Below are positions 25,988-39,198 of a DNA stretch of 64,000 nucleotides, piece after piece (the first letter of the stretch is position 1; each line of letters begins with the position of its first letter). The translations under genes and the position numbers were made by a program. Below the pieces are notes generated by a model. The model was not told the origin of the DNA and searched no databases. It was given only the letters and a program-made list of their open reading frames with translations. The stretch comes from Candidatus Edwardsbacteria bacterium RifOxyA12_full_54_48 (GTDB lineage: Bacteria > Edwardsbacteria > AC1 > EtOH8). The DNA lies in assembly GCA_001777915.1 (NCBI GenBank), contig MFFN01000001.1:1-64000 (forward strand). The letters are read 5' to 3'.

Positions 25988-26182
25988 ATGAAGCTCAAGT
26001 GCAACGTTTGCGGCTACATCTACGATCCGGAGGCCGGCGACCCCGACGGAGACGTCAGGCCGGGAACATATTTTGACAATCTTCCGCTGGACTGGGTCTG
26101 CCCGGACTGTGGCGCGTCGCAGGATATTTTCGAGATCATCGACGACGATTTTGAGGAGGAAGGCGGGGAGGAGGATGAGTAG
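25988..26182 (+). CDS. Rubredoxin
   Basis: 64 residues. The two iron-binding CxxCG/CxxCG knuckles are [17 protein letters not shown] (Cys 5 and 8) and [14 protein letters not shown] (Cys 38 and 41). The spacing and the aromatic residues (Y11, W36) match classical rubredoxins, small one-electron carriers of anaerobes. The end is very acidic. A GGCGAGGG site precedes the ATG. Not obviously co-transcribed with an oxidase or reductase; the MBL-fold gene follows after 168 bp. Confidence 0.95.
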
Positions 26183-26350
26183 TCCTCTTCCCGTTTCTTT
26201 TTCGGAAGCAAGGGGCAAGCAGCCACAATATCATCCGGCCAGTCAGCGATGCCTTCGGCCGGGGGATGGGGCTGGCGATGAAAATCTGTCTGAAATACCA
26301 GGAGATATAAATTTTGTCGGTTATATAGTTAATACAACTGGGAGGGACGA

Positions 26351-27175
26351 ATGAAGGTCACTTTTTACGGGGTGCGGGGCTCTATCCCGGCGCCGGGCGC
26401 CGACACCTACCGCTACGGCGGCAACACCACCTGCGCCGAGGTGATCACCTCCAGCGGCTACCGGATGATCATCGACTGCGGCACCGGGATCCGGAAGCTG
26501 GGGCTAAAACTGCTCAAGGAAAAGGATCCGGCCGCCATCCCCATCTTCATCACCCACGCCCATTGGGACCATGTCCAGGGGCTGCCGTTCTTCCTTCCCA
26601 TTTATATGCCCCGTTTCAAACTGATGTTCGTCAGCGCCAACGACAGCTTCGACCGGCTGTATCAGACCCTCTACAATCAGATGGACGGATACGTGTTTCC
26701 GGCCGACCTGCAGGAGGTGCAATCCCAGGTCAAGTTCGAGATAATAGACTCCAAGGGCTTCGATTTCGGCGGGGTGCATTTCGACACCATCCTGAACAAC
26801 CATCCGGTGCCCACCCACGGCCTGCGGATAAAGGACGGGGAGAAGACCTTCGTCTTCATCACCGACAACGAATTGCGGGCGGAGAAGCCGGCCACCCCTT
26901 ACCAGGATTTTGCGGCCTTCTGCCGGGGGGCGGACATTCTGGTGCACGACGCCCAGTACACCGAGGAGGACATGAAGAAGACCCGGGGCTGGGGGCATTC
27001 CACCTTCGGCGAAGCCGTAAAACTGGCCGAGGAGGCCGGGGTCAAGCGGCTGGGGTTCTTCCACCACGATCCGGAGCGGACCGACGATCAGCTGGATGAG
27101 ATCATAAAACAGATGCAGGGGACCACCCAGGTCAAATTGTTCGGGACCCGGGAGGGTGAGGTGCTGGAACTTTAG
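26351..27175 (+). CDS. MBL-fold metallo-hydrolase
   Basis: 274 residues of the metallo-beta-lactamase fold. Metal ligands are THAHWDH (about 67-73), the histidine in NHPVPTHG and the aspartate/histidine near LVHDAQYTEED and GWGHST. The start MKVTFYGVRGSIPAPG and YGGNTTC are typical of the subgroup often fused to or found near signalling proteins (cAMP phosphodiesterase / PhnP-like), active on phosphodiesters. The exact substrate is unknown. It follows a GGGAGGGACGA ribosome site, and a GC-rich palindrome separates it from the korA gene. Confidence 0.88.
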   Translation: MKVTFYGVRGSIPAPGADTYRYGGNTTCAEVITSSGYRMIIDCGTGIRKLGLKLLKEKDPAAIPIFITHAHWDHVQGLPFFLPIYMPRFKLMFVSANDSFDRLYQTLYNQMDGYVFPADLQEVQSQVKFEIIDSKGFDFGGVHFDTILNNHPVPTHGLRIKDGEKTFVFITDNELRAEKPATPYQDFAAFCRGADILVHDAQYTEEDMKKTRGWGHSTFGEAVKLAEEAGVKRLGFFHHDPERTDDQLDEIIKQMQGTTQVKLFGTREGEVLEL

Positions 27176-27180
27176 ACCTA

Positions 27181-27212
27181 ACCCCCGCCCCTTCCCCAAG
27201 GGGGAAGGGGTC
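27181..27212 (+). repeat. Dispersed GC-rich palindrome (CCCCTTCCCC / GGGGAAGGGG)
   Basis: A perfect 10-bp hairpin (27188-27197 and 27201-27210) with a 3-nt loop directly after the MBL-fold gene. The preceding CTAACCCCCG resembles the leader of the palindromes near 14.77 and 63.3 kb (CCTCACCCCTGCC), so the three probably belong to one family. There is no T-run, so it is not a good terminator. Confidence 0.5.
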
Positions 27213-27247
27213 CAGTATAAAAAAAAGAAAATCAAATGGTATAAAAT

Positions 27248-29014
27248 ATGGTCGATCTGACCATCAAAATAGCCGGGGCGGCCGGGCAGGGGATGCAGAC
27301 CATCTCCACCATCCTGGCCAGATCACTCACCCGGCAGGGCTATTACGTCTACTGCTACCAGGATCTGATGTCCCGGATCCGGGGCGGGCATAATTACGCC
27401 ACCATCCGCATCTCCGACCACCCGGTGGGCGGACTGTCCGAGGAGAGCAACATCCTGATAGCCCTGAATGCGGAATCCGTCAAACTTCACTCCGGGGAGA
27501 TGATCCCCAACGGGGTCATTGTATACGACGACAAATTGCAACCCTTCGACAAAGCTCAGGGCAAGAATGAAGATCTTGAAATTCAAAATGATGAATTGAA
27601 TCTATTTCCGGTGCCGATGGAAAAACTGGCGGTGGAGGCCGGACAGAACAAGATTCTGGTCAATTCGGTGGCCTGCGGGGTGTGCTTCAACCTGATGGAA
27701 TACGATTTCGATGTCCTGGCCGATACCTTGGGGGATATATTTGCCGCCAAGGGCGACGCCATGGTGGAGGCCAACATCCGGGCGGCCCGGGCGGGCTACG
27801 AATATGCCCGGAAAAATTTCCCGGAAGGAACCTGCCCCTATTGTCAGTTAAAACTTGAAAGGGAAAAGTCGAAAGCCCGGTTGCTGATGAACGGCAGCCA
27901 AGCCGCCGGACTGGGGGCCATCCTGTCCGGGCTTAAATTCATGTCGGCCTATCCCATGTCTCCATCCACCGGAATCATGGAATATATCGCTTCCCAGCAG
28001 GTGGAATTGGGGATCATCATGGAACAGGCCGAGGACGAAATCGCGGCCATCAATATGGCGCTGGGGGCCTCTTTCGCCGGGGTGCGCAGCATGACCGCCA
28101 CCTCGGGCGGCGGCTTCGCCCTGATGACCGAGGGGCTGTCGCTGGCCGGGATGACCGAGACCCCGCTGGTCATCTTCTTGGCCCAGCGGCCCGGCCCGGC
28201 CACCGGGCTTCCCACCCGCACCGAGCAGGGCGACCTGATGTTCGCCCTGTACGGCGGGCACGGCGAATTCCCCCGGGCCATCCTGGCTCCCGGCGATGCC
28301 GAGGAGACCGTACATTGCATGAACCGGGCCTTCAACCTGGCGGACCGCTACCAGATCCCGGTGATAATCCTGGGCGACCAGAACCTGAACGATTCTTTCT
28401 GGACGGTGGATGCTATCGATCCCGGGCGCTTCTCCATAGACCGTGGGAAGCTACTCGATAAATGGGATGAAACCCAGGAGGAATACAAGAGGTATCACCT
28501 GACACCCGACGGCATCTCGCCCCGGCTGATCCCCGGCAGCCCCGGAGCGGTGGGCTACTGGGACAGCGACGAACACACCGAGGAGGGGCACATCGCCGAG
28601 AGCGCCTCGGTCAGGCGGCAGATGACGGCCAAGAGGATGAAGAAAATCCAGTCCCTGCAGGCGGAAGCCCTGGCCCCCGTAATGTGCGGCACCGGCGACC
28701 AGGTGCTGCTGATCGGTTTCGGCACCACCAAGTGGCCGGTCATGAAGGCCGTGGAGGCTTTGGCCAGAAAGGGCGAAAAGATATCCGGCCTGCATATAAA
28801 ACAGCCGTACCCTCTGTCATCGGAGATCAGAACGATATCGGAAGGTTTTTCCAAGATAATCGTGGTGGAGCAGAACGCCACCGGGCAGCTGGAAAAACTG
28901 CTGTTGACAGAATCGGGCATCAAAGCCTCCGGGTCCATCAGAAAATTCGACGGCCGGCCGATCACGGCCAAATATATAGTTGATAGTTACGAAACCGTAA
29001 GACAAACTCTATAA
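27248..29014 (+). CDS. korA: 2-oxoacid:ferredoxin oxidoreductase, fused gamma-alpha subunit
   Basis: 588 residues. Residues 1-about 180 are the gamma domain (KIAGAAGQGMQTISTILARS and MSRIRGGHNYATIRIS). About 205-440 is the TPP-binding alpha N-domain (SAYPMSPSTGIMEY, EQAEDEIAAINMALGASFAG, TATSGGGFALM). The rest is the alpha C-domain, ending GRPITAKYIVDSYETVRQTL. This gamma-alpha fusion with a separate beta subunit is the layout of 2-oxoglutarate (KorAB) and related enzymes, which oxidise a 2-oxoacid with CoA and reduce ferredoxin. The beta subunit at 32.6 kb has no 4Fe-4S delta partner nearby. An AT-rich stretch about 100-125 (DKAQGKNEDLEIQNDELN) is an insertion. Confidence 0.93.
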   Translation: MVDLTIKIAGAAGQGMQTISTILARSLTRQGYYVYCYQDLMSRIRGGHNYATIRISDHPVGGLSEESNILIALNAESVKLHSGEMIPNGVIVYDDKLQPFDKAQGKNEDLEIQNDELNLFPVPMEKLAVEAGQNKILVNSVACGVCFNLMEYDFDVLADTLGDIFAAKGDAMVEANIRAARAGYEYARKNFPEGTCPYCQLKLEREKSKARLLMNGSQAAGLGAILSGLKFMSAYPMSPSTGIMEYIASQQVELGIIMEQAEDEIAAINMALGASFAGVRSMTATSGGGFALMTEGLSLAGMTETPLVIFLAQRPGPATGLPTRTEQGDLMFALYGGHGEFPRAILAPGDAEETVHCMNRAFNLADRYQIPVIILGDQNLNDSFWTVDAIDPGRFSIDRGKLLDKWDETQEEYKRYHLTPDGISPRLIPGSPGAVGYWDSDEHTEEGHIAESASVRRQMTAKRMKKIQSLQAEALAPVMCGTGDQVLLIGFGTTKWPVMKAVEALARKGEKISGLHIKQPYPLSSEIRTISEGFSKIIVVEQNATGQLEKLLLTESGIKASGSIRKFDGRPITAKYIVDSYETVRQTL

Positions 29015-29460
29015 GGAAGCCAGGAATGCAGGAAAATCGAATACATGGGGAAATTGGTTTTGGATGTGGAAAGGGACCAAGCAAAATAATTCCTGTCTTC
29101 ATGGTTTCATTATAAGGGATTCTATAAGGAAGCCAGGAATACAGGAGAATCGGATACGCGGTTTTAGGGAGTTGGAATGTGAAAAAAGTCTCGCTTATCC
29201 CTAATAATTCCTGCCTTCATGGTTTCATTATAAGGGATTCTATAAGGAAGCCAGGAATACAGGAAAATGGATGCACGGGTAAAGTGGTTTTCGCTTTGAA
29301 AAGGGTGATCTCAAAATAATTCCTGCCTTCATGGTTTCATTATAAGGGATTCTATAAGGAAGCCAGGAATACAGGAAAATGGATACACGGGTAAATTGGT
29401 TTTCGATTTGAAATGGGTGATATCAAAGTAATTCCTGCCTTCAGGGATTCCTAACAAAAG
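29008..29460 (+). repeat. Four-copy tandem array of a 112-118 bp inverted-repeat unit
   Basis: Units start at 29008, 29121, 29239 and 29351 with TCTATAAGGAAGCCAGGAAT and end with AATTCCTGCCTTCATGG followed by TTTCATTATAAGGGAT; the last is cut short at 29460. The left arm GAAGCCAGGAAT pairs with ATTCCTGCCTTC except for one mismatch, and the right arm of one unit can also pair with the left arm of the next. Units 3 and 4 are almost the same; unit 2 differs most in its middle. The first unit contains the korA stop codon. The array fills the gap from korA to the relic ORF and has no gene. Confidence 0.9.
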
Positions 29461-29466
29461 GGATAT

Positions 29467-29550
29467 ATGAGGGACGTTAATATATACAAAAGCGGAGACG
29501 GGCGGCCCATAACGGCAAAATATATTGCGGATAGTTATAAATCGTTATGA
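29467..29550 (+). pseudogene. 27-codon ORF related to the KorA C-terminus
   Basis: A short ORF with its own ATG (29467) behind AAAAGGG, encoding MRDVNIYKSGDGRPITAKYI then ADSYKSL. The block DGRPITAKYI plus DSY matches the end of KorA at 28950-29000 with one substitution in between. Codons differ mainly at third positions, so the two copies diverged as coding sequence. The stop overlaps the ATG of the next gene (ATGA). It is either the remnant of a lost korA paralogue or a coupled leader peptide. It is shown as a pseudogene; function unproven. Confidence 0.6.
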
Positions 29551-32500
29551 AAAAAATACTGGCCATATCGATATTCCTGCTGTCAGTCTTGCCGGGTGGG
29601 GAGTGTCTGGCCCAGGATTCCCTCAACCTGAGGACCGTGGGGGTCTGGCCCTACGGGCTTACCAATGCCGTAAATAAATACATCAGCGGCGGTCATGATT
29701 ACATCCTGATGGGCAGCGGCCGGCGCATCAGTTTGCTGAACGTGGACGACCCCGCCCATCCCTGCATCACCGGCGAGACCGGCGTTGCCGACGATATCAA
29801 CAAGATATGGGCCGATGGCAATTACGCCTATACGGCCCACGGCCACTCCGGGGTCAGCATCATTGACCTTACCGATCCCCACCACATCCGGGGATCCTAT
29901 AAAACAGAGGGGCCGGCCAAGGACATCGAGGTCAGATGGCCCTATGCCTACGTGGCGGTGGACAGCCAAGGCCTGACGGTGCTGAACATATCCGATCCGG
30001 CCGATCCCTTTCTGGTTTCGAGATTGAATTTTTCCGGGGAGACCATCGGCATCGGGCTGGGCGGGAATTACGCCTTTCTGGCCTCGGGCGGCAACGGGGT
30101 CAGGGTGCTGAATATCGGCAATCCGAATGTCCCAACGCTTATCGCCAGCTGCAACAGCCTGGGTTATGTTTACGATGTCTCCGTTTCCGGCAGCTATGCC
30201 TACGTGGCGGCCGGAGATTCCGGCCTGAGGGTCATGGATATCTCCAATATCTCCGCCCCGGTGCCGTCATCGAAGTTCAAATTCCAGAACAAGGCCAGAG
30301 CGGCGGTGAGGTCCGGGGACAATGTCTTTGTGGCCGGGGATTTTGCCGGGCTGAGGATCATCAATGCGGCCACTCCCGGTAAGATCGGGGAGGTGGGATA
30401 TTTTAAAACCGCCTATAATGTGGTGGACCTGTGTATGATAGGCGACCATGCCTTCCTGGCCGACAGAGCCGGCGGACTGCGGGTTATAGACGTCTCACAG
30501 ATAAAGAATCCGGTCCTGGCCGGCCAGTTCGACACCCCGGGATATGCCAAGAACCTGCTGATAAAAAACGGCTATGCCTACATCAGCGACGGAGATTCCG
30601 GCCTGTGCATCGCTGACATCAGCGATCCGGTGGCGCCGGTTGCCGTGGGGCGGTATCATTCGCCAGGCTTTGTCTCGGCGGCCGATATCCCCGGCAGACA
30701 TGCCTACCTGGCGGCCGGCGGTGCCGGGCTGAGAATTGTTGATATCCTGGACCCGGCCAATCCGGTGGAGACAGGTTTCTGGGACAGCCCCGGCCAGGCC
30801 AACGATGTGTTGCTCCAGACCATGGATGATGAAAGGAGGTATGCCCTCCTGGCCGACGGGGATTCCGGCATATCCCTGGTATATGTACATGATCCTTACA
30901 ATCCGGTGGATACCGCCAGGCTCGATTCGGTCGGCCATGCCTGCGGCTTGACAACCGTTAGTATCTTGGGTGGCAGCAGTATCCTTGGGGCGATGGGAAC
31001 CCATGATTTCACCGGTATAGATATCTGGCAGATCTATCCCGACAGCTTGGATTCAAGCAAGGTAACCTATGCCCTAAATGCCGGCAGCGGTCCGGCTGCC
31101 GATTACAACTACTCAGTCAGCTTCAATGATAACAAGCTCTGCATATCCAATGGCAATCAGGGGCTCAGTATTAGAAATCTCATCATTGAAAACCTCAATG
31201 GTGTGTGGATATACTGGTTTTCCCCCGGGGGAACTTATTATACCTCAACCAAGACCAAGGATGCGGCGATTTCCGGCAACTACGCCTATGTCACCGACAA
31301 ATATTCGGGTCTGCAGGTGGCCGACTTTACTGACCAGGGAAATCGGGGAGGGATCGGGTTTTATGCCGTGCCCGATTCCATGGAAACGGCGCTTCTCTAC
31401 GGCAATTATGCCTATCTGCTGTGCGGCCAGGCCGGCATCAGGATCGTGGACGTCACCCAAAAATCCATCATCACCGAAGCCGGGGCCTACGACATCCCCC
31501 TGGCTGTCTACGGTCTGCAGGCGAGGGACAGCCTGGCCTACGCGGCGGACGTGAATTCGGGGATAAGGGTGCTGGATATATCCGATGCGGCCCATCCCCG
31601 GGAGATAGGCTACTGCCGGACAGCGGGCACCCCTTTCGGGCTGGACATCGCGGACAGCATCATCGGGGTGGCCGACGGGGAGTTCGGGCTGGCATTGATA
31701 AACGCCAAAGACCCGGTCAGTCCGGTGGTGGTCGGCAGCTGGAACAGCCCCGGGTTTGCCTACAAGGTAAAGATGGACGGAAATTCCGCATACCTGGCCG
31801 ACGAGTCCGCCGGATTGCGGATAATAGATATCAGCGACAAAGCGATGCCGGTTGAAACAGGCTTCTATAACACTTTGGGCAATGCCTACGGGCTGGATAT
31901 CAAAGGCGGCCACGCTTACGTCGCAGACGGGTCCAATGGATTGCAGGTGATCGACATTACGAATAAAGCCGATCCTACGCTGACCGCCAGCTTGAGCCTG
32001 CCGGGGACGGCCTACGATGTGGCCATCTCGGGGAATTATGCCTACCTGGCTGCCGGATATTACGGCCTGAGGATCGTCAATATCGCCGATCCCAACCATC
32101 CCGCCGAGACCGGATATTGCAACACCGCCGGCTATGCCCGGGGACTGGCAGTCAACGGCAGCACGGCCTATGTGGCCGACGGCCACAACGGACTGGCATC
32201 GATTGACGTGTCTGATCCCACCGCCCCCCGGCAGACCGGGCGGTATTACAGCGGGAGCAGTGTCTGGGCGGCGGCCGTTTCCGGAGAGAACATACTTCTT
32301 TCGGACGGCAACTATATATTAAGGGTCTTGGAGACCTGGCAATCACCGCTGCCACCGGAAAAAAGATACGAATCTCTGGTATCCCAGAATTATCCCAATC
32401 CTTTTAAGGCCGGGACTCGTATCAATTATTCCGTTTCGATTTTCGGCCGGGTCTCAATTTCGATCTACAACGCATACGGACAGAAAGTGATCGAGCTGGT

Positions 32501-32645
32501 GAACCAGGAGAAAAACGGCGGGCAGTATTCGGCTTATTGGGATGGCCGGGACCAGCAGGGCCGTCCCGTCCCCTGCGGCGTTTATTTCTACCGGGTCAGC
32601 ACTCCCGATCTTACCCGGACCAAGAAGATGATGATAATCAGGTGA
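29547..32645 (+). CDS. Secreted LVIVD-repeat beta-propeller protein with T9SS-type C-terminal domain
   Basis: 1032 residues. A signal peptide (MKKILAISIFLLSVLPGGECLA) is followed by about twenty repeats of roughly 40 residues of the LVIVD type (for example GNYAYLAAGYYGLRIVNIAD, then PNHPAETG), forming one or more large propellers. The final about 85 residues from YESLVSQNYPNPFKAGTRIN are the FlgD-like/type IX sorting domain (YNAYGQKV, YWDGRDQQGRPV, GVYFYRV, KKMMIIR). It is probably exported to the cell surface. Its position between the alpha and beta subunit genes of a cytoplasmic oxidoreductase is odd. Start overlaps the relic ORF. Confidence 0.9.
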   Translation: MKKILAISIFLLSVLPGGECLAQDSLNLRTVGVWPYGLTNAVNKYISGGHDYILMGSGRRISLLNVDDPAHPCITGETGVADDINKIWADGNYAYTAHGHSGVSIIDLTDPHHIRGSYKTEGPAKDIEVRWPYAYVAVDSQGLTVLNISDPADPFLVSRLNFSGETIGIGLGGNYAFLASGGNGVRVLNIGNPNVPTLIASCNSLGYVYDVSVSGSYAYVAAGDSGLRVMDISNISAPVPSSKFKFQNKARAAVRSGDNVFVAGDFAGLRIINAATPGKIGEVGYFKTAYNVVDLCMIGDHAFLADRAGGLRVIDVSQIKNPVLAGQFDTPGYAKNLLIKNGYAYISDGDSGLCIADISDPVAPVAVGRYHSPGFVSAADIPGRHAYLAAGGAGLRIVDILDPANPVETGFWDSPGQANDVLLQTMDDERRYALLADGDSGISLVYVHDPYNPVDTARLDSVGHACGLTTVSILGGSSILGAMGTHDFTGIDIWQIYPDSLDSSKVTYALNAGSGPAADYNYSVSFNDNKLCISNGNQGLSIRNLIIENLNGVWIYWFSPGGTYYTSTKTKDAAISGNYAYVTDKYSGLQVADFTDQGNRGGIGFYAVPDSMETALLYGNYAYLLCGQAGIRIVDVTQKSIITEAGAYDIPLAVYGLQARDSLAYAADVNSGIRVLDISDAAHPREIGYCRTAGTPFGLDIADSIIGVADGEFGLALINAKDPVSPVVVGSWNSPGFAYKVKMDGNSAYLADESAGLRIIDISDKAMPVETGFYNTLGNAYGLDIKGGHAYVADGSNGLQVIDITNKADPTLTASLSLPGTAYDVAISGNYAYLAAGYYGLRIVNIADPNHPAETGYCNTAGYARGLAVNGSTAYVADGHNGLASIDVSDPTAPRQTGRYYSGSSVWAAAVSGENILLSDGNYILRVLETWQSPLPPEKRYESLVSQNYPNPFKAGTRINYSVSIFGRVSISIYNAYGQKVIELVNQEKNGGQYSAYWDGRDQQGRPVPCGVYFYRVSTPDLTRTKKMMIIR

Positions 32646-32648
32646 TAT

Positions 32649-33503
32649 ATGCTTGACCCCGAAATCTATAACAGCCAAGATGAGATAGCCTGGTGCCCCG
32701 GCTGTTTCAACCACTCCATCCTGAAGGCTCTCAAGCAGGCCCTATCCGACCTGGAAATACCGCCCCATCGGGCGGTCTTCAGCTCCGGGATCGGCCAGGC
32801 GGCCAAGCTGCCGCATTATATCAAATGCAACCTTTTCAACGGGCTGCACGGCCGGGCCCTGCCGGTGGCCACCGGGATCAAGCTGGCCAATCACCATCTC
32901 CAGGTCATTGCCGAGGGTGGCGACGGAGACGGCTATGCCGAGGGGGGCAATCATTTCATCCACGCCATGCGGCGGAACATCGGCCTTACCTATCTGGTGC
33001 ACAACAATCAGGTCTACGGGCTGACCAAGGGCCAGACCTCGCCCACTTCCGAGTCTGGCTTCATCAGCATCACCACCCCGCTGGGCAATTTCAGTTTCCC
33101 GGAACAGCCCCTGACCATGGCCATTGCCGCCGAATGCTCCTTGGTGGCCCGTGGTTTTGCCGGGGATTCCGATCATCTGGCCGGGCTGATAGTAGAGGGG
33201 CTCAGGAACCCGGGCTTTTCGTTCATCGACATCCTCCAGCCCTGCATCACCTTTAACAAGGTCAATACTTTCAAGTGGTACCAGGAAAGGGTTTATAAAC
33301 TGCCGCCGGAGTACGACCCCTACGACAAGACAGCGGCCTTTGCCATGGCCCAGGAGTGGGGGGACAAAATACCGACCGGCATCATCTACAGAAACAACCG
33401 GGTCCCCTTGGAAAAACAGCTGCCCCAGATTTCCCGGACATCCCTACTGAATCTGGAGATCGAGCAGGAAAAAAGAATTTCACTGATAAATGATTTTAAA
33501 TGA
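32649..33503 (+). CDS. korB: 2-oxoacid:ferredoxin oxidoreductase, beta subunit
   Basis: 284 residues. It has the CPGC of the 4Fe-4S/TPP beta subunit (DEIAWCPGCFNHSILKAL, about 12-29), GIGQAAKLPHYIKCN, HGRALPVATGIKLAN and the TPP motif GDGDGYAEGGNHFIHA. NNQVYGLTKGQTSPTS is the usual post-TPP block. It would pair with the fused gamma-alpha subunit at 27.2 kb, although a 3.6-kb interval separates them. Starts 3 bp after the LVIVD gene and overlaps the next ORF's first possible ATG. Confidence 0.95.
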   Translation: MLDPEIYNSQDEIAWCPGCFNHSILKALKQALSDLEIPPHRAVFSSGIGQAAKLPHYIKCNLFNGLHGRALPVATGIKLANHHLQVIAEGGDGDGYAEGGNHFIHAMRRNIGLTYLVHNNQVYGLTKGQTSPTSESGFISITTPLGNFSFPEQPLTMAIAAECSLVARGFAGDSDHLAGLIVEGLRNPGFSFIDILQPCITFNKVNTFKWYQERVYKLPPEYDPYDKTAAFAMAQEWGDKIPTGIIYRNNRVPLEKQLPQISRTSLLNLEIEQEKRISLINDFK

Positions 33504-33517
33504 CCGGAGGGAGTAAT

Positions 33518-33883
33518 TTGGAAAGAGTATCTTTTGTAAAACACAAAAACAGGGACATCCTGGTGGTGGATATCTCCGGCATCAGAAATGTGGAAGAGAG
33601 CATTGCCACCCTGCAGAACGCCACCCGGCTGGTGAAGACCCAGGCACCGGGATCGCTTCTGATGCTGACCAACGTCAGCGGCACCCATTACGACAAGGCC
33701 GGGGCCGATGCCATCAAAACCTATTCCCGGGAGAACACTCCTTTCGTCAAGGCCAGTGCGGTGGTGGGAGTGTCCGGCATCAAGCGTTTGGTGCTGAACA
33801 CCATAGTCAAGATCACCGGGCGGAGGATCATGCCCTTCGACGACGCGGAGGCGGCCAAGGATTGGCTGGCCGGGCAGCAGTAA
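33518..33883 (+). CDS. STAS/SEC14 (SpoIIAA-like) domain protein, paralogue 1
   Basis: 121 residues from a TTG at 33518. An in-frame ATG at 33500 overlaps the korB stop, but the TTG sits behind GGAGGGAG (33507-33513) and makes the protein start LERVSFVKHKNRDIL, which aligns with MDRVKYLNHKGREIL of the next gene. The fold looks like the SpoIIAA-like STAS/SEC14 family (VVGVSGIKRLVLNTIVKITG and PFDDAEAAKDWLAGQQ at the end). These small cytoplasmic proteins have unknown roles. It is followed by its own paralogue. Confidence 0.75.
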   Translation: MERVSFVKHKNRDILVVDISGIRNVEESIATLQNATRLVKTQAPGSLLMLTNVSGTHYDKAGADAIKTYSRENTPFVKASAVVGVSGIKRLVLNTIVKITGRRIMPFDDAEAAKDWLAGQQ

Positions 33884-33904
33884 TAATCAACCAGGAGGCG
33901 ATAG

Positions 33905-34270
33905 ATGGATAGGGTGAAATATCTTAACCATAAAGGCCGGGAGATCCTGGTACAGGACCTGACCGACTCCAAGAACATCGATGAGAACATTGCCGTCTTC
34001 GACCGGACCCAGGGCATCATCGCCGGCCGCCCGGAGAAATCGGTGTTGCTGCTGACCGTCCTGGTAAACACCCATTATTCGCCCCAGGCGGTGGACCGAC
34101 TGAAGAGATTCTCGGTGGAGGTGACCCCCCATATCAAGGCCAGCGCGGCGGTGGGGATCACCGGCATCAAGAAGGTGGTCTACCAGACGCTGTCAGCGCT
34201 TATCGGGCGCAAGATCCACCTTTTTGACAGCATTGACCGGGCCCTGGATTGGCTGGCGGAACAGGAATAA
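33905..34270 (+). CDS. STAS/SEC14 (SpoIIAA-like) domain protein, paralogue 2
   Basis: 121 residues, a tandem paralogue of the preceding gene with the same length and key blocks (KASAAVGITGIKKVVYQTLS, HLFDSIDRALDWLAEQE). The ATG follows CAGGAGG (33891-33897). The pair suggests a heterodimer or divergence after duplication. No catalytic motif is seen. The association with ferredoxin-linked enzymes is not explained by what is known of the family. Confidence 0.75.
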   Translation: MDRVKYLNHKGREILVQDLTDSKNIDENIAVFDRTQGIIAGRPEKSVLLLTVLVNTHYSPQAVDRLKRFSVEVTPHIKASAAVGITGIKKVVYQTLSALIGRKIHLFDSIDRALDWLAEQE

Positions 34271-34294
34271 TAAACCATAAGGCGAGGAATATCC

Positions 34295-34804
34295 ATGGCA
34301 AGCCAGTTTAAAAATATCGACCCCGAGCAGATCGGCGATAATGCTTTCAAGCTCATCAACAAGGATTGGATGCTGATAACTGCCGGCAAAGCGGGTTCCT
34401 TCAATACCATGACCGCCAGCTGGGGCGGACTGGGGATACTGTGGCACAAGCCGGTGGCTTTCTGCTTTGTCCGCCCCAACCGCCATACCTACGGGTTCAT
34501 GGAGCGGGAGCAGTATTACAGCCTTTCGGTTTACCCGGAGAAATACCGGAAGGTGCTGGAGCTCTGTGGCACCAAGTCCGGACGGAACATCGACAAGGTC
34601 AAGGAGACCGGGCTGACCCCGCTTTCGGGGGTAACCGGGGCGGTATATTATGAACAGGCCCGTCTGGTGCTGGAATGCCGCAAGATATATTATCACGATA
34701 TCGATCCCCAGAAATTTCTGGACCCCGAGATCCACAAGAACTACCCCATCAAGGATTATCACCGGATGTATGTGGGAGAGGTGCTTAACTGTCTGGTAAA
34801 ATAA
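34295..34804 (+). CDS. Flavin reductase-like FMN-binding protein
   Basis: 169 residues of the flavin reductase-like split-barrel family. Blocks are LITAGKAGSFNTMTASWGGLG (about 27-47), KPVAFCFVRPNRHTYGFME and HRMYVGEVLNCLVK. Members bind FMN and reduce it with NAD(P)H, or serve as flavoredoxin-like electron carriers in anaerobes. A flavoredoxin-type carrier would fit the adjacent redox genes. Not diagnostic for the exact partner. Confidence 0.88.
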   Translation: MASQFKNIDPEQIGDNAFKLINKDWMLITAGKAGSFNTMTASWGGLGILWHKPVAFCFVRPNRHTYGFMEREQYYSLSVYPEKYRKVLELCGTKSGRNIDKVKETGLTPLSGVTGAVYYEQARLVLECRKIYYHDIDPQKFLDPEIHKNYPIKDYHRMYVGEVLNCLVK

Positions 34805-34838
34805 AATGACCATAAAAATAAATTTAAGGAGGCAAAAA

Positions 34839-35474
34839 ATGAAAAAACTTATTTTGATTTCGTTAAGCCTTTTATCGGCTTCGTTCTGCTGGGCCCAAAG
34901 CAAACCGCACGGGATACTGAACCTGAACACGGTAAACGTCAAGGTAGACGGGCAGGTGGGGCCGGAGGAATACCCCACCAATTTCGTGGATTCCCAGACC
35001 GGCATCGGCGTCAGCTGGGTGAGCGACGGCAGGCTGCTGTATGTCGCCCTGCAGAGCCCGGCCCGGGGATGGGTGGCCATCGCTTTCGGCAACAGCAAGA
35101 TCAGGGGGACCTCCATGGTCATCGGATACCACAAACCAGGCGGCGGAAGGGTGGACGAACATGTAGGCAGCTGGGTCTCCACCCACAAGCCCATAGACAA
35201 GCCCTCCCTGGTGAACTTTGCCACCGGATCCAATCCCACGGGCACCGTCATAGAATTCGCCATGCCCCTGACCCTTTCCAACGGGCAGGTGATCGTGCCG
35301 GGCCAGCCCATGTCTTACGTTCTGGCCCACCACGCCAAAAAGACCTCCTTCAAGGGCCGCCCGTCCAAGAAGAGCGCCGGCACCCTGCTGCTGGGAAAAC
35401 CGGAGAGGGCCGACGAGATGCCGGTGCAGACCAGCCCGTCGGCCGATACCATCAAAAAATCCGATGAAAAATAA
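34839..35474 (+). CDS. Exported DOMON domain protein, paralogue 1
   Basis: 211 residues from ATG 34839 behind AAGGAGG (34826-34832). Signal peptide (MKKLILISLSLLSASFCWA) is followed by a DOMON-type jelly-roll (VKVDGQVGPEEYPTNFVDSQ, LYVALQSPARGWVAIAFGN, then ARGWV and GTVIEFAMPL). DOMON domains bind heme or sugar and take part in extracytoplasmic electron transfer; the usual Met/His ligands are not certain here. The C-terminal about 45 residues are Lys/Ser-rich. Its paralogue follows after 19 bp. Confidence 0.82.
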   Translation: MKKLILISLSLLSASFCWAQSKPHGILNLNTVNVKVDGQVGPEEYPTNFVDSQTGIGVSWVSDGRLLYVALQSPARGWVAIAFGNSKIRGTSMVIGYHKPGGGRVDEHVGSWVSTHKPIDKPSLVNFATGSNPTGTVIEFAMPLTLSNGQVIVPGQPMSYVLAHHAKKTSFKGRPSKKSAGTLLLGKPERADEMPVQTSPSADTIKKSDEK

Positions 35475-35493
35475 TCTCCCAGGGAGGATCGAA

Positions 35494-36072
35494 ATGAAGA
35501 CAGTGTTACCGATATTCTGTCTGCTGCTGCCGATAGCGGCCTGGGGCGGAGAGACCATATGCCTGCCTCAATATGATCGATGCGCCAGCACGGTGGACGG
35601 CAAGATAGATAAGGACGAGTACCGGCATTCTTTTACCGATCCCGTTACCGGCATCATGGTTTTCTGGCAGGCCGACAGCTTCAACCTCCAGGCGGCCCTG
35701 AAAAGTCCGGGATCGGGCTGGCTGGCCATCGGACTGGGGTCGGGCAAGATGAACGGGGCCGACATGATAATAGGCTTTAAGGATGGCGCCGGGCAGTGGG
35801 TGGCGGAGGAGCATCTGGGAAAGGCTTTCTTTCGCCATGCCCCGGTTGAAAAGCCCAAATTGGCGGCCGGAAAAGCGGCAGCGGCGGAGGGCCGGACAAT
35901 ATTGGAATTTATCCTCCCCCTGAAGCTTTCCAACGGCAAGGAGATCAAGCCGGGACAAAACTTCCCGTTCCTGCTGGCCTATCATAAGGACAAAGTAAAA
36001 ATTTCCAAGCATACCAAGAAGTCGGCAAATATGCTGATGCTGGCCAGGGAAGCCGAGAAAACCGGCAAGTGA
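35494..36072 (+). CDS. Exported DOMON domain protein, paralogue 2
   Basis: 192 residues from ATG 35494, with an AGGGAGG site at 35481-35487. Signal peptide MKTVLPIFCLLLPIAAWG, then a DOMON fold related to the previous gene: STVDGKIDKDEYRHSFTDPV, LQAALKSPGSGWLAIGLGSG and ILEFILPLKLSNGKEIKPGQ. It carries two extra cysteines (about 23 and 30) near the N-terminus. Together the two copies could be periplasmic carriers or sensors fed by the redox genes next to them; that is inference. Confidence 0.82.
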   Translation: MKTVLPIFCLLLPIAAWGGETICLPQYDRCASTVDGKIDKDEYRHSFTDPVTGIMVFWQADSFNLQAALKSPGSGWLAIGLGSGKMNGADMIIGFKDGAGQWVAEEHLGKAFFRHAPVEKPKLAAGKAAAAEGRTILEFILPLKLSNGKEIKPGQNFPFLLAYHKDKVKISKHTKKSANMLMLAREAEKTGK

Positions 36073-36081
36073 GGAGTTGTT

Positions 36082-36360
36082 ATGGCCAACAAAGTCAAAG
36101 GGGCCAACCGGGTCCACCAGATCATGCTGTATGCCCTGTCCACCTGCGTTTGGTGCCGGAAGACGAAAAAACTGCTGGACACCCTTGATGTCGAATATGA
36201 ATACATCTTCGTCGACCTGCTGGATGGGGTGGAAGAGGAGCGGGCGATGGACCAGTTGGAGCGGTACAACCCCGGCCGGACCTTCCCCACCATGGTGATA
36301 GATGGCAAACGGGTTATAGTGGGCTTCAAGGAGCCGGAGATCAGGAAGGCATTGTCATGA
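36082..36360 (+). CDS. Glutaredoxin-family protein
   Basis: 92 residues, thioredoxin fold with redox motif CVWC (Cys 22, 25), unlike the CPYC of classical glutaredoxin. Substrate-binding features FPTMVIDGKRVIVGF and a C-terminal KPEIRKAL-like helix are normal. It overlaps the next gene by ATGA, so the fused ferredoxin-thioredoxin reductase catalytic domain that follows may reduce it. Confidence 0.92.
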   Translation: MANKVKGANRVHQIMLYALSTCVWCRKTKKLLDTLDVEYEYIFVDLLDGVEEERAMDQLERYNPGRTFPTMVIDGKRVIVGFKEPEIRKALS

Positions 36361-36857
36361 GGAAGATAAAAGAGATCGAGGCCGAGGTCCGGGAGCTGGC
36401 CGATAAAGAGGGATATCTGCTGAATTCCGACCGGGAGATCCTTGAGGGTATCATCGAGGGTCTGGCTATCAACGAGGAAAAACTGGGTTACTGGTCTTGC
36501 CCCTGCCGTAAGGCTTCGGGAGACAGAATGCAGGATCTGGACATAATCTGCCCCTGCCAGTACCGCGACCCGGACCTGGCGGAATACGGGCGCTGCTATT
36601 GCGCGCTGTATGTCACTCAGGGATATGTCGACCAGGGCTCATCCCCTGAACCGATCCCGGAAAGAAGGGAAAAGGAAATCAAGTCCGGATCCAAGGATTC
36701 GGAGGCTCATAATGAGATCCCCGAAGATCAAGGGGAAAATAAAATAAAGACCTGGCGATGCCAGGTCTGCGGGTATCTCTGCGCCAGGCCGGAGGTCCCC
36801 CCGGTCTGTCCCATCTGCCGGGCCAAGAAGGAGAGGTTTGAGGAATATCGGATTTAG
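36357..36857 (+). CDS. Ferredoxin-thioredoxin reductase catalytic domain fused to a rubredoxin-like domain
   Basis: 166 residues. Residues 1-about 95 are the ferredoxin-thioredoxin reductase catalytic subunit fold with CPC (48-50), CPC (65-67) and CYC (80-82), holding a 4Fe-4S cluster and disulfide. The third motif is CYC where plant enzymes have CHC. After an acidic linker, residues about 132-158 are a rubredoxin-type iron site (WRCQVCGYLC, then VCPICRAKKERF; Cys 135, 138, 151, 154). Ferredoxin-thioredoxin reductases transfer electrons from ferredoxin to thioredoxin-like proteins. Start overlaps the glutaredoxin (ATGA), and the lipoprotein gene overlaps its end. Confidence 0.9.
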   Translation: MRKIKEIEAEVRELADKEGYLLNSDREILEGIIEGLAINEEKLGYWSCPCRKASGDRMQDLDIICPCQYRDPDLAEYGRCYCALYVTQGYVDQGSSPEPIPERREKEIKSGSKDSEAHNEIPEDQGENKIKTWRCQVCGYLCARPEVPPVCPICRAKKERFEEYRI

Positions 36858-38070
36858 CAAAAGAACGATCTTTCGGCTGGCTTTTGCTTTTGCCGGACTG
36901 GTGATATTTGCCGGGTGCCAGCATAATCCAGTGTATCCCGATATCGGCTCGGTATACATCTACAGCGACCCCGATAAGGCCGAGGTGCTGATGGACGGAC
37001 AAATGCTGCGCCTGATCACGCCGGTAAAGATAGACGGGATACCGGTGGGGCTGCATACCTTTACTCTGAGGCATAACAATTACAAGGTAATGAACTTTAC
37101 CATGGAGGTAAAACCGGGTCAGACCAGGACGGTCTACAAAAAACTTTCTACTATCTCCCTGCAAAGGAAGGACACATTATCCATATCGGCCGGCGATATG
37201 GACCTAACCAGCGAGGGAGTGATATTTTTAACCAATCTCTGGAGCGGCAATATCACCATTGCCCGGATAGCCGACAACGGTCAAATTTCTACGATCGACC
37301 AGATTGATGTGGGGGCTCCCCAGCGGCTGATCGCCGCAAACGAATCTGCCAACCGGGTATTTGTCACCAGGCAGAAACCCGACGGCGAGGAGGACCTGGT
37401 GGGGCTGGAGATACTGTCCCATAAAATAATCCGTTCAATATACCTTAACAACATTAAACATTACTCCGCTCTGGCCATTTCCCCGGACGGGAATATACTG
37501 GCAGCCGCCGACAGTTTAAATAAAAGACTGGTTTTGATAGACAGCCGGCTTTGCACCGTGATAAAAACCATAAGCACCACCGGCTTCCCGACGGATCTGT
37601 CTTTTGACAGAAATAATTCTTTGCAGATTTATGTCACTCAAAGCGGGATAAACCGATTTGATCTGGTGAACCTGGAGACCGGAGAGGTGGCAAACAGTGT
37701 TGCTACCGGCAATTCCCCCGGAGGGATCTTCTGGAATAATCACTGTACCCAGGTGGGTTTCTGCAACCGTACGGACATTACCTATACGGTCGTCAACATC
37801 GGCAATTGGACCACCGCCACTTCCGGTCAGGATGTTGTCGGAAAGATTATTGTCGGGGCCTGCTGGAGCAGCAGCGATGTATACGTACTGTGGGCCATGG
37901 ATCATAATGTGGGGATAATGTATATTCCCAACTGGCAGCAGACATCAAAGATCTACAATTATGTGCCGGTGGGGGGTGGTCAACTGGTTGAAATATCATT
38001 GACCGGCGATCAAAGATACCTGCTGATGCTGAATGATGCACAGCTGGTCACGGTGGAATTGGGCCTGTGA
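36838..38070 (+). CDS. Lipoprotein with PEGA domain and propeller-like repeats
   Basis: 410 residues from a TTG at 36838, overlapping the previous gene by 20 bp. The lipobox IFAGC ends the signal peptide (cysteine about 25). Residues about 33-105 are a PEGA domain (GSVYIYSDPDKAEVLMDGQM, IPVGLHTFTLRHNNYKV), often found in envelope proteins. The rest has blades like YVTQSGINRFDLVNLETGEV, likely a beta-propeller. Function unknown; its place after the redox genes may be chance, as the overlap suggests only co-transcription. Confidence 0.75.
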   Translation: MRNIGFSKRTIFRLAFAFAGLVIFAGCQHNPVYPDIGSVYIYSDPDKAEVLMDGQMLRLITPVKIDGIPVGLHTFTLRHNNYKVMNFTMEVKPGQTRTVYKKLSTISLQRKDTLSISAGDMDLTSEGVIFLTNLWSGNITIARIADNGQISTIDQIDVGAPQRLIAANESANRVFVTRQKPDGEEDLVGLEILSHKIIRSIYLNNIKHYSALAISPDGNILAAADSLNKRLVLIDSRLCTVIKTISTTGFPTDLSFDRNNSLQIYVTQSGINRFDLVNLETGEVANSVATGNSPGGIFWNNHCTQVGFCNRTDITYTVVNIGNWTTATSGQDVVGKIIVGACWSSSDVYVLWAMDHNVGIMYIPNWQQTSKIYNYVPVGGGQLVEISLTGDQRYLLMLNDAQLVTVELGL

Positions 38071-38226
38071 GCCATACCCGGATCATCACATACTAAGCAG
38101 ATGCATCACCGGGTTTAAAACGCTGGAATATTAGGCTGTTTTGTGATATATTCTACAAAGTTAAGCATAGGATATGATAATTTTTGTCGGCCGTCCCCGT
38201 TACTTAAAACCAAAATATCAGAAAAA

Positions 38227-39198
38227 ATGACCCTACAGATAAAAGTTTATAAAAGCAACCTCCGGACCCAATGGGAGGAATTCGTGGCGACTGCCAATAA
38301 CGGCACGGTATTTCACCGGCAGCAGTTTTTGGATTATCATCCCCAGGGCCGGTTTGACAACCATCACCTGATGCTGTACGACGGTGCGCGGCTGGCTGCC
38401 GTGATGCCGGCCCTGATAAAGGACGAGCAGGGCAGCAAAACGGTGATATCCTACGGCGGGGCCTCCTATGGCGGCCTGGTGGTCGCCGCAGGATCGGGAA
38501 TCGCCGAGATAAACCGGATGGCCGAAGCGGCCACCGAATATTGGTCCCGCCAGGGGGCCAAGCGGATATTGATCACCCAGCCTCCGCTGATCTATATGCA
38601 GCAACCCAATCAATACATCGATTTCAGCCTGTCTAAATTGGGCTATTCTTATCTGAAGAGGGAGATAACCGCCGTCATCCTCCTGGAATTCCCCGGGGAG
38701 GAGGCCATCGCAAGTAGCTTCAAACCGGAGACCAGGACCGCCCTCAGAAAATCATACAGATCAGGCGTCACGGTCAGGGTCAGAGAAGATATCGATGAGT
38801 TCTATCATATATTGGAGAAGAACCTGAGTGCCCGGCATAACGTCAAACCCACCCATACTCTGGCAGAGTTGAAGAGGTTGAAAAAACTGCTGCCGAAGAA
38901 CATGCTTCAATTTACCTCCTACCTGGGGAAGACCCCGGTGGCCGGAATGACGGTCTTCATCTGCAATCCCAGGGTCCTTTTGGCCTTCTACATCAGCCAC
39001 GACCAGGATTACCAGGAGCATCGCCCGGTGAACTCGGTCTATCACCAGGTGATAAAATGGGGCTGGGAGAGCGGGTTCAAATACCTGGACCTGGGCACCT
39101 TCACCCTGAACATGCAGCCCAACTGGGGCCTGGGACGGTTCAAGGAGGGTTTCGGGGCCCGGGGGTATTTGCGGGAAACATTTGAATTAAGATTTTAA
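38227..39198 (+). CDS. FemAB/GNAT-type acyltransferase
   Basis: 323 residues from ATG 38227; the preceding 28 in-frame codons lack a signal or ribosome site. The C-terminal half (YLGKTPVAGMTVFICNPRVL, YHQVIKWGWESGFKYLDLGT then FKEGFGA) matches the GNAT fold of FemAB-like peptidoglycan or exopolysaccharide transferases, which move aminoacyl or acyl groups. A glycosyltransferase and an amidase follow, so cell-envelope modification is likely. The exact substrate is unknown. Confidence 0.82.
   Translation: MTLQIKVYKSNLRTQWEEFVATANNGTVFHRQQFLDYHPQGRFDNHHLMLYDGARLAAVMPALIKDEQGSKTVISYGGASYGGLVVAAGSGIAEINRMAEAATEYWSRQGAKRILITQPPLIYMQQPNQYIDFSLSKLGYSYLKREITAVILLEFPGEEAIASSFKPETRTALRKSYRSGVTVRVREDIDEFYHILEKNLSARHNVKPTHTLAELKRLKKLLPKNMLQFTSYLGKTPVAGMTVFICNPRVLLAFYISHDQDYQEHRPVNSVYHQVIKWGWESGFKYLDLGTFTLNMQPNWGLGRFKEGFGARGYLRETFELRF

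Follow-up and report, generated by a model that had tools for sequence, protein, structure and literature searches.

Joined gene units for a 2-oxoacid:ferredoxin oxidoreductase and a glutaredoxin-ferredoxin:disulfide reductase pair in Candidatus Edwardsbacteria

Does a tightly packed run of redox genes encode one electron circuit, or have separate units come to lie side by side? The question is raised by a 64,000-nucleotide stretch of the Candidatus Edwardsbacteria bacterium RifOxyA12_full_54_48 genome (contig MFFN01000001.1, positions 1 to 64,000; hereafter the window, to which all position counts refer). Here korB, two STAS-like paralogues, a flavin reductase-like gene and two DOMON genes precede a glutaredoxin (Grx) gene and a gene that fuses the catalytic domain of ferredoxin-thioredoxin reductase (FTR) to a rubredoxin. 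The original prediction took this run as a single ferredoxin-linked electron-distribution operon. We find the eight genes from korB to FTR-rubredoxin at the location and with the identities that it gave, on the plus strand, and the spacing is as tight as it described, with -4, 21, 24, 34, 19, 9 and -4 bases from each stop to the next start. The kor unit begins further upstream, at korA (27248), with a gene for an LVIVD-repeat protein intervening before korB, and the run followed here extends from korA to the end of FTR-rubredoxin (36857; Table 1). We favor, at a probability of about 0.55, a reading in which two units have been joined: electrons from a 2-oxoacid would pass through the oxidoreductase KorAB (Kor) to ferredoxin, on to FTR-rubredoxin and from there to Grx, with the flavin reductase, STAS and DOMON proteins as neighbors.

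The glutaredoxin and FTR-rubredoxin pair

The fusion protein aligns across both domains (residues 8-164 of 166, E 4.9e-47) with PDB entry 4tpu, which we take to be the ferredoxin:disulfide reductase (FDR) of Methanosarcina acetivorans and whose chain is labeled Rubredoxin. In both proteins an FTR catalytic domain is followed by a C-terminal rubredoxin; the gene context differs, and the activity of the window protein is a prediction from its sequence. The six FTR cysteines (C48 and C50 in CPC 48-50, C65 and C67 in CPC 65-67, C80 and C82 in CYC 80-82) are invariant in all eight alignment rows, as are the four rubredoxin cysteines and Y81, which occupies the position of the active-site His of FTR. 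Ferredoxin:disulfide reductase has CYC where plant-type FTR carries CHC. In Grx, the two cysteines C22 and C25 are invariant in 11 of 11 rows, and its closest profile matches in the PDB are 3nzn (5e-35), 5cax (2e-34), presumably methanoredoxin, and the first part of 7pwe (3e-21), in which a Grx is paired or fused with FTR. Because the Grx profile matches the first part of 7pwe and the FTR part of our fusion also matches this entry, 7pwe is a Grx-FTR fusion chain with the Grx part (residues 3-82) ahead of the FTR part, whereas in the window Grx is a separate gene. The M. acetivorans FDR reportedly reduces methanoredoxin. A review gives the name methanoredoxin to a Grx-like protein of this archaeon (PMC7278568).

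The pairing is conserved far beyond the window. Using the best 80 named loci of 359 FTR relatives, with flanks totaling 1,195,601 bases, we found Grx directly upstream of FTR at 77 loci from archaea and bacteria, including methanogens, Methanoperedens, Thermoplasmata, Chloroflexi, WOR-3, Spirochaetes and others. The remaining three are L050, L061 and L125, the last of these near a contig end. The pair is therefore already known and very widespread, and the window pair is by its predicted proteins a further member. Since Grx adjoins FTR at nearly all of these loci, the originally proposed step from the fusion to Grx rests on a known pair, and the matches to 4tpu, 7pwe and 5cax likewise support it as a prediction. 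No relative of STAS, DOMON or flavin reductase was found within the flanks of any of the 80 loci. A system with the whole set was thus not seen elsewhere among these best 80 loci. A literature search on FTR with rubredoxin or Desulfotalea found nothing.

Gene order and gene loss within the family

We then compared the run across its family (f1), using ten genomes, the window's own included (genera are labeled g1, g2 and so on). Two genera, g1 and g2, preserve the order (G002, G003, G004 and G007, apart from one insertion and some missing genes), and its preservation in these four genomes means that the compact arrangement is not due to chance. G002 has the window's order throughout, LVIVD and PEGA genes included; G003 is without LVIVD at this site and without DOMON2; G004 and G007 have a single DOMON gene each, and in G004 a 1.2 kb gap containing an M23 peptidase gene separates Grx from FTR. 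In genus g4 (G006, G008), korA, korB, one STAS gene and the flavin reductase gene lie on one contig and DOMON1, DOMON2, Grx and FTR on another; at 377 kb (C16) and 209 kb (C13), the contigs of G006 are long enough for this split to be real. Scattered genes in relatives, which had been named as evidence against a single operon, were therefore found in part: g4 divides the set over two loci, and g1 and g2 keep it in order. The joining of Grx-FTR with the kor-STAS-flavin reductase unit is a variant seen only in this family.

This arrangement suggests two building blocks. The first would consist of KorAB, one or two SpoIIAA-like (STAS) proteins and a flavoredoxin-like protein, and the second of the FTR-rubredoxin disulfide reductase and Grx, to which this family adds exported DOMON proteins. 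In the scheme that we infer, for the donor, every electron step and the cofactors alike, KorAB would oxidize a 2-oxoacid and pass the electrons to ferredoxin, ferredoxin would reduce the rubredoxin center and through it the [4Fe-4S] disulfide site of the FTR domain, and FTR would in turn reduce Grx, which may then reduce protein disulfides. The same layout could also arise if a housekeeping kor operon and a general Grx-FTR pair able to use any ferredoxin were unrelated and had become neighbors by chance in g1 and g2. We regard this as a possible account with the odds against it. The g4 split and the lack of STAS, DOMON and flavin reductase relatives in the flanks of the 80 loci speak for unrelated units, as does the tie of FTR to its other side, where the downstream genes look similar by eye in g1 and g3.

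Gene loss speaks against it. In G001, all that is left of korA is residues 519-584, with a stop; korB carries a stop and a deletion, Grx has been lost and FTR is down to 22 residues, while STAS1, STAS2, flavin reductase and DOMON1 are stop-free, with ratios of nonsynonymous to synonymous substitution (dN/dS) of 0.065-0.121 against G003, some of this divergence possibly predating the loss. In G009, from another genus, the first 111 residues of korA are missing and two stops interrupt the gene, and frameshifts affect korB, STAS and flavin reductase. DOMON1 is intact there, and DOMON2, Grx and FTR are absent. Five neighbor genes on the same G009 contig each align in one piece, so poor sequence is unlikely to explain these breaks, and because the two units sit apart in g4, the loss in G009 comprises at least two events and not one deletion. 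The fate of STAS and flavin reductase differs between the two genomes, intact in G001 and broken in G009. Altogether, korAB and FTR are both present in 7 of 10 genomes (partly truncated at contig ends in G004 and G007), 2 have a broken korAB and no Grx-FTR, and FTR occurs without korAB in one, G005, a genome 89% complete in which FTR is cut at a contig end and a korAB orthologue is absent. Fisher's test gives 0.067 with G005 and 0.028 without it, both values uncorrected for kinship. The co-loss in G001 and G009 argues for KorAB and Grx-FTR being functionally linked and against the view that DOMON1 depends on them. A single circuit for the whole set finds no support in the family, as the set is split in g4 and STAS, flavin reductase and DOMON1 survive in G001 after the loss of KorAB and Grx-FTR.

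Kor and FTR beyond the family

A wider set of 193 genomes, 183 of them outside the family, contained korA (E <= 1e-60) in 77, FTR (E <= 1e-20, some matches spanning the FTR domain only) in 26 and both in 20. Outside the family, FTR was found in 13 of 69 genomes with korA and in 5 of 114 without (Fisher 0.0036). Divided by KorA type, the genomes with FTR were 8 of 21 where KorA is near (E <= 1e-105), 5 of 48 where it is distant and 5 of 114 where there is none; Fisher's test gives 0.016 for near against distant and 0.16 for distant against none. This enrichment with the near KorA type is a second point against unrelated units. With the co-loss in 2 of 10 family genomes and the association over the 183 outside genomes, the original view of KorAB as the ferredoxin source has moderate support, as has the link from Kor to FTR.

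We also observed a strong korA 2.3-5.3 kb downstream of FTR in 4 of the 80 named loci (L052, L053, L055 and, from WOR-3, L073). About 87 korA matches in the 193 genomes correspond to a density of about 0.16-0.35 per million bases (from rounded genome sizes), so that 0.2-0.4 korA would be expected in 1.2 million flank bases, compared with the four loci observed; three of the four are Chloroflexi, and the independent cases are therefore few. A single kor-FTR operon at these loci was considered and rejected, as the proximity is loose and unrelated genes intervene: a PEP-utilising enzyme in L073, nitroreductases and others in L053 and L055, and rubrerythrin and other frames in L052.

Several observations weigh against the proposed chain from Kor to Grx. 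G005 has FTR yet no korAB orthologue, 6 of the 26 FTR genomes (G012 and G026 included) are without korA at E <= 1e-60, as unrelated units would also predict, the family genomes are not statistically independent, and the cut between near and distant KorA was chosen after the table was seen. Other oxidoreductases, such as the korB paralogues in these genomes, could reduce ferredoxin, and an anaerobic lifestyle could confound the association of KorA with FTR and may yield the same pattern. A stronger form of the link is a dedicated pathway of this lineage, in which 2-oxoacid oxidation sets the thiol state of the cell via Kor, ferredoxin, FTR-rubredoxin and Grx, under lineage-specific control by the STAS pair and the flavoredoxin-like protein, and KorAB and the reductase are kept or lost jointly even when they lie apart; we consider this unlikely.

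Neighboring proteins and other features of the run

KorAB contains all of its gamma, alpha and beta domains, and both subunits match the two-subunit 2-oxoacid:acceptor oxidoreductase families (TIGR03710, TIGR02177); in contrast to that system, an exported LVIVD gene splits the window's subunit genes. In G000 and G002 this gene stands between the two subunit genes of a cytoplasmic enzyme, in G001 it stands between their remnants, and in G003 it is missing from this place; a shorter LVIVD relative lies upstream of korA in G006. A metallo-beta-lactamase fold gene (26351-27175) upstream of korA adjoins korA in G009 and lies about 4 kb upstream of it in G006, and since it is kept near korA it may be part of the kor unit.

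Table 1. Features of the gene run, by window position.
Feature	Positions	Strand	Evidence or remark
korA, 2-oxoacid:ferredoxin oxidoreductase, fused gamma and alpha subunit	27248..29014	+	TIGR03710 above cut-off
gap with four short units and second korA 3′ end copy	29015..29546	+	GxxExxY element ends
exported LVIVD-repeat protein, 1032 residues, type IX-like C-terminal sorting tail	29547..32645	+	between korA and korB
korB, thiamine-diphosphate subunit of KorAB	32649..33503	+	TIGR02177 above cut-off
STAS1, SpoIIAA-like fold protein	33500..33883	+	sub-threshold Pfam match and structure model
STAS2, STAS1 paralogue (~40% identity)	33905..34270	+	
flavin reductase-like / flavoredoxin-like protein	34295..34804	+	PF01613 above cut-off
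DOMON1, signal-like N-terminal stretch	34839..35474	+	PF03351 just above cut-off
DOMON2, signal-like N-terminal stretch	35494..36072	+	PF03351 just above cut-off
glutaredoxin (Grx), dithiol motif CVWC	36082..36360	+	PF00462 above cut-off
ferredoxin:disulfide reductase, FTR catalytic domain and C-terminal rubredoxin	36357..36857	+	PF02943 and PF21349 in one chain, above cut-off

Gene position is the only tie of the STAS and flavin reductase proteins to kor, and any role of theirs in the chain is putative. STAS matches Pfam PF11964 below threshold (E 0.0015-0.003), and its profile had no credible match among PDB sequences; its AlphaFold2 model (pLDDT 90) matches the fold of the SpoIIAA-like DUF3478 protein 2q3l (TM 0.71, Foldseek E 1.7e-3). 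Residues S52, T57 and S76 are invariant in the alignment. STAS was found in 15 of 386 genomes. The window's family accounts for 9, and the short loci around the matches in the other 6 showed neither kor nor flavin reductase. A STAS2-like gene adjoins korB in G004 and G007 and STAS1 does so in genus g1, so that the order is swapped. The flavin reductase profile matches flavoredoxin 2d5m in part (residues 35-136, E 3e-06). The run might instead be a redox-sensing or stress unit, with STAS as regulator, the flavoredoxin-like protein and Grx-FTR mending oxidized thiols and Kor as a convenient electron source. The SpoIIAA-like fold of the STAS model and the ferritin-like genes seen by eye near the g4 Grx-FTR unit would fit this; neither an anti-sigma partner nor a sensor kinase turned up in the run, and the promoter scan stays at shuffle level, which makes such a unit improbable. 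A limited literature search linking SpoIIAA-like proteins with ferredoxin oxidoreductase gave no account of this gene set.

That scan found 11 promoter-like sites compared with 8.8 in shuffles and 12 terminator-like sites compared with 12.8, and it neither backs nor breaks an operon. An Rfam scan of 26000-39000 gave zero RNA element matches.

The DOMON proteins were originally proposed as extracytoplasmic acceptors within one electron-distribution circuit. By hydropathy, DOMON1, DOMON2 and the LVIVD protein have signal-like N-terminal stretches; none of the Kor, STAS, flavin reductase, Grx and FTR proteins shows a clear membrane span. For DOMON1 the structure model is middling, with pLDDT 69 (33-49 for the other four models). 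Its best matches are DOMON domains, namely those of ethylbenzene dehydrogenase gamma and the pyranose and cellobiose dehydrogenase cytochromes (Z 12.5-11.8), with dopamine beta-hydroxylase (12.3) in the same range; lower scores go to nitrite oxidoreductase gamma (11.2) and to sugar-binding domains of the CBM9 type (10.2-9.6). The DOMON of dopamine beta-hydroxylase is not known to carry haem. At this model quality the fold of DOMON1 appears like that of b-haem DOMON domains (2ivf_C, 6jt6, 1d7b; Z 12.5-12.3), making haem in DOMON1 plausible; M93 and H165, which might serve as axial ligands, are invariant in 11 of 11 rows, as are H108 and H116, and the DOMON profile had no credible match among PDB sequences. 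The contiguous genes of G000 and G002, the place of DOMON beside Grx-FTR in g1, g2 and g4 and the b-haem domains among the best model matches (ethylbenzene dehydrogenase gamma and cellobiose dehydrogenase cytochrome, Z 12.5-12.1) would all suit a circuit with outside acceptors. DOMON1, however, persists unbroken in G001 and G009, which have lost KorAB and Grx-FTR, the number of DOMON genes varies even where the order is kept, none of the 80 other Grx-FTR loci has one, and the run encodes no membrane carrier to link cytoplasmic ferredoxin with the exported-looking DOMON proteins. The acceptor role is thus unsupported and one circuit for the whole set is very improbable. The two-unit reading instead takes the DOMON proteins as exported, possibly with b-haem, and dispensable to the Kor-FTR-Grx chain. 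A limited literature search on DOMON domains with glutaredoxin and ferredoxin returned work on an alga and on pepper leaves and no account of this set.

In the window, the gap after korA retains the two ends of a GxxExxY element, in four short units arranged in tandem, but no GxxExxY gene; this gene (TIGR04256, PF13366) with inverted ends lies at this site in G001 and G007 and is frameshifted in G003. Related elements lie at L029 7233-7780, L034 3594-4049 and L039 11835-12292. The element end TATAAGGAARCCAGGAA has 8 copies in the window's genome (4 in the gap), occurs in 6 of 11 genomes searched and is absent (0) from the reversed control. Behind the element the 3′ end of korA is repeated, at 29460-29546 and also at L039 11700-11850, and in G001 the repeat includes a piece resembling korB, as though the ends had been duplicated and mixed by an insertion.

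The two-unit reading places a widespread, little-studied ferredoxin:disulfide reductase beside a defined source of reduced ferredoxin. G001 and G009 are a natural loss experiment that hints at which neighbors belong together, and if the co-loss recurs in further genomes, a ferredoxin donor would be named for a bacterial ferredoxin:disulfide reductase.

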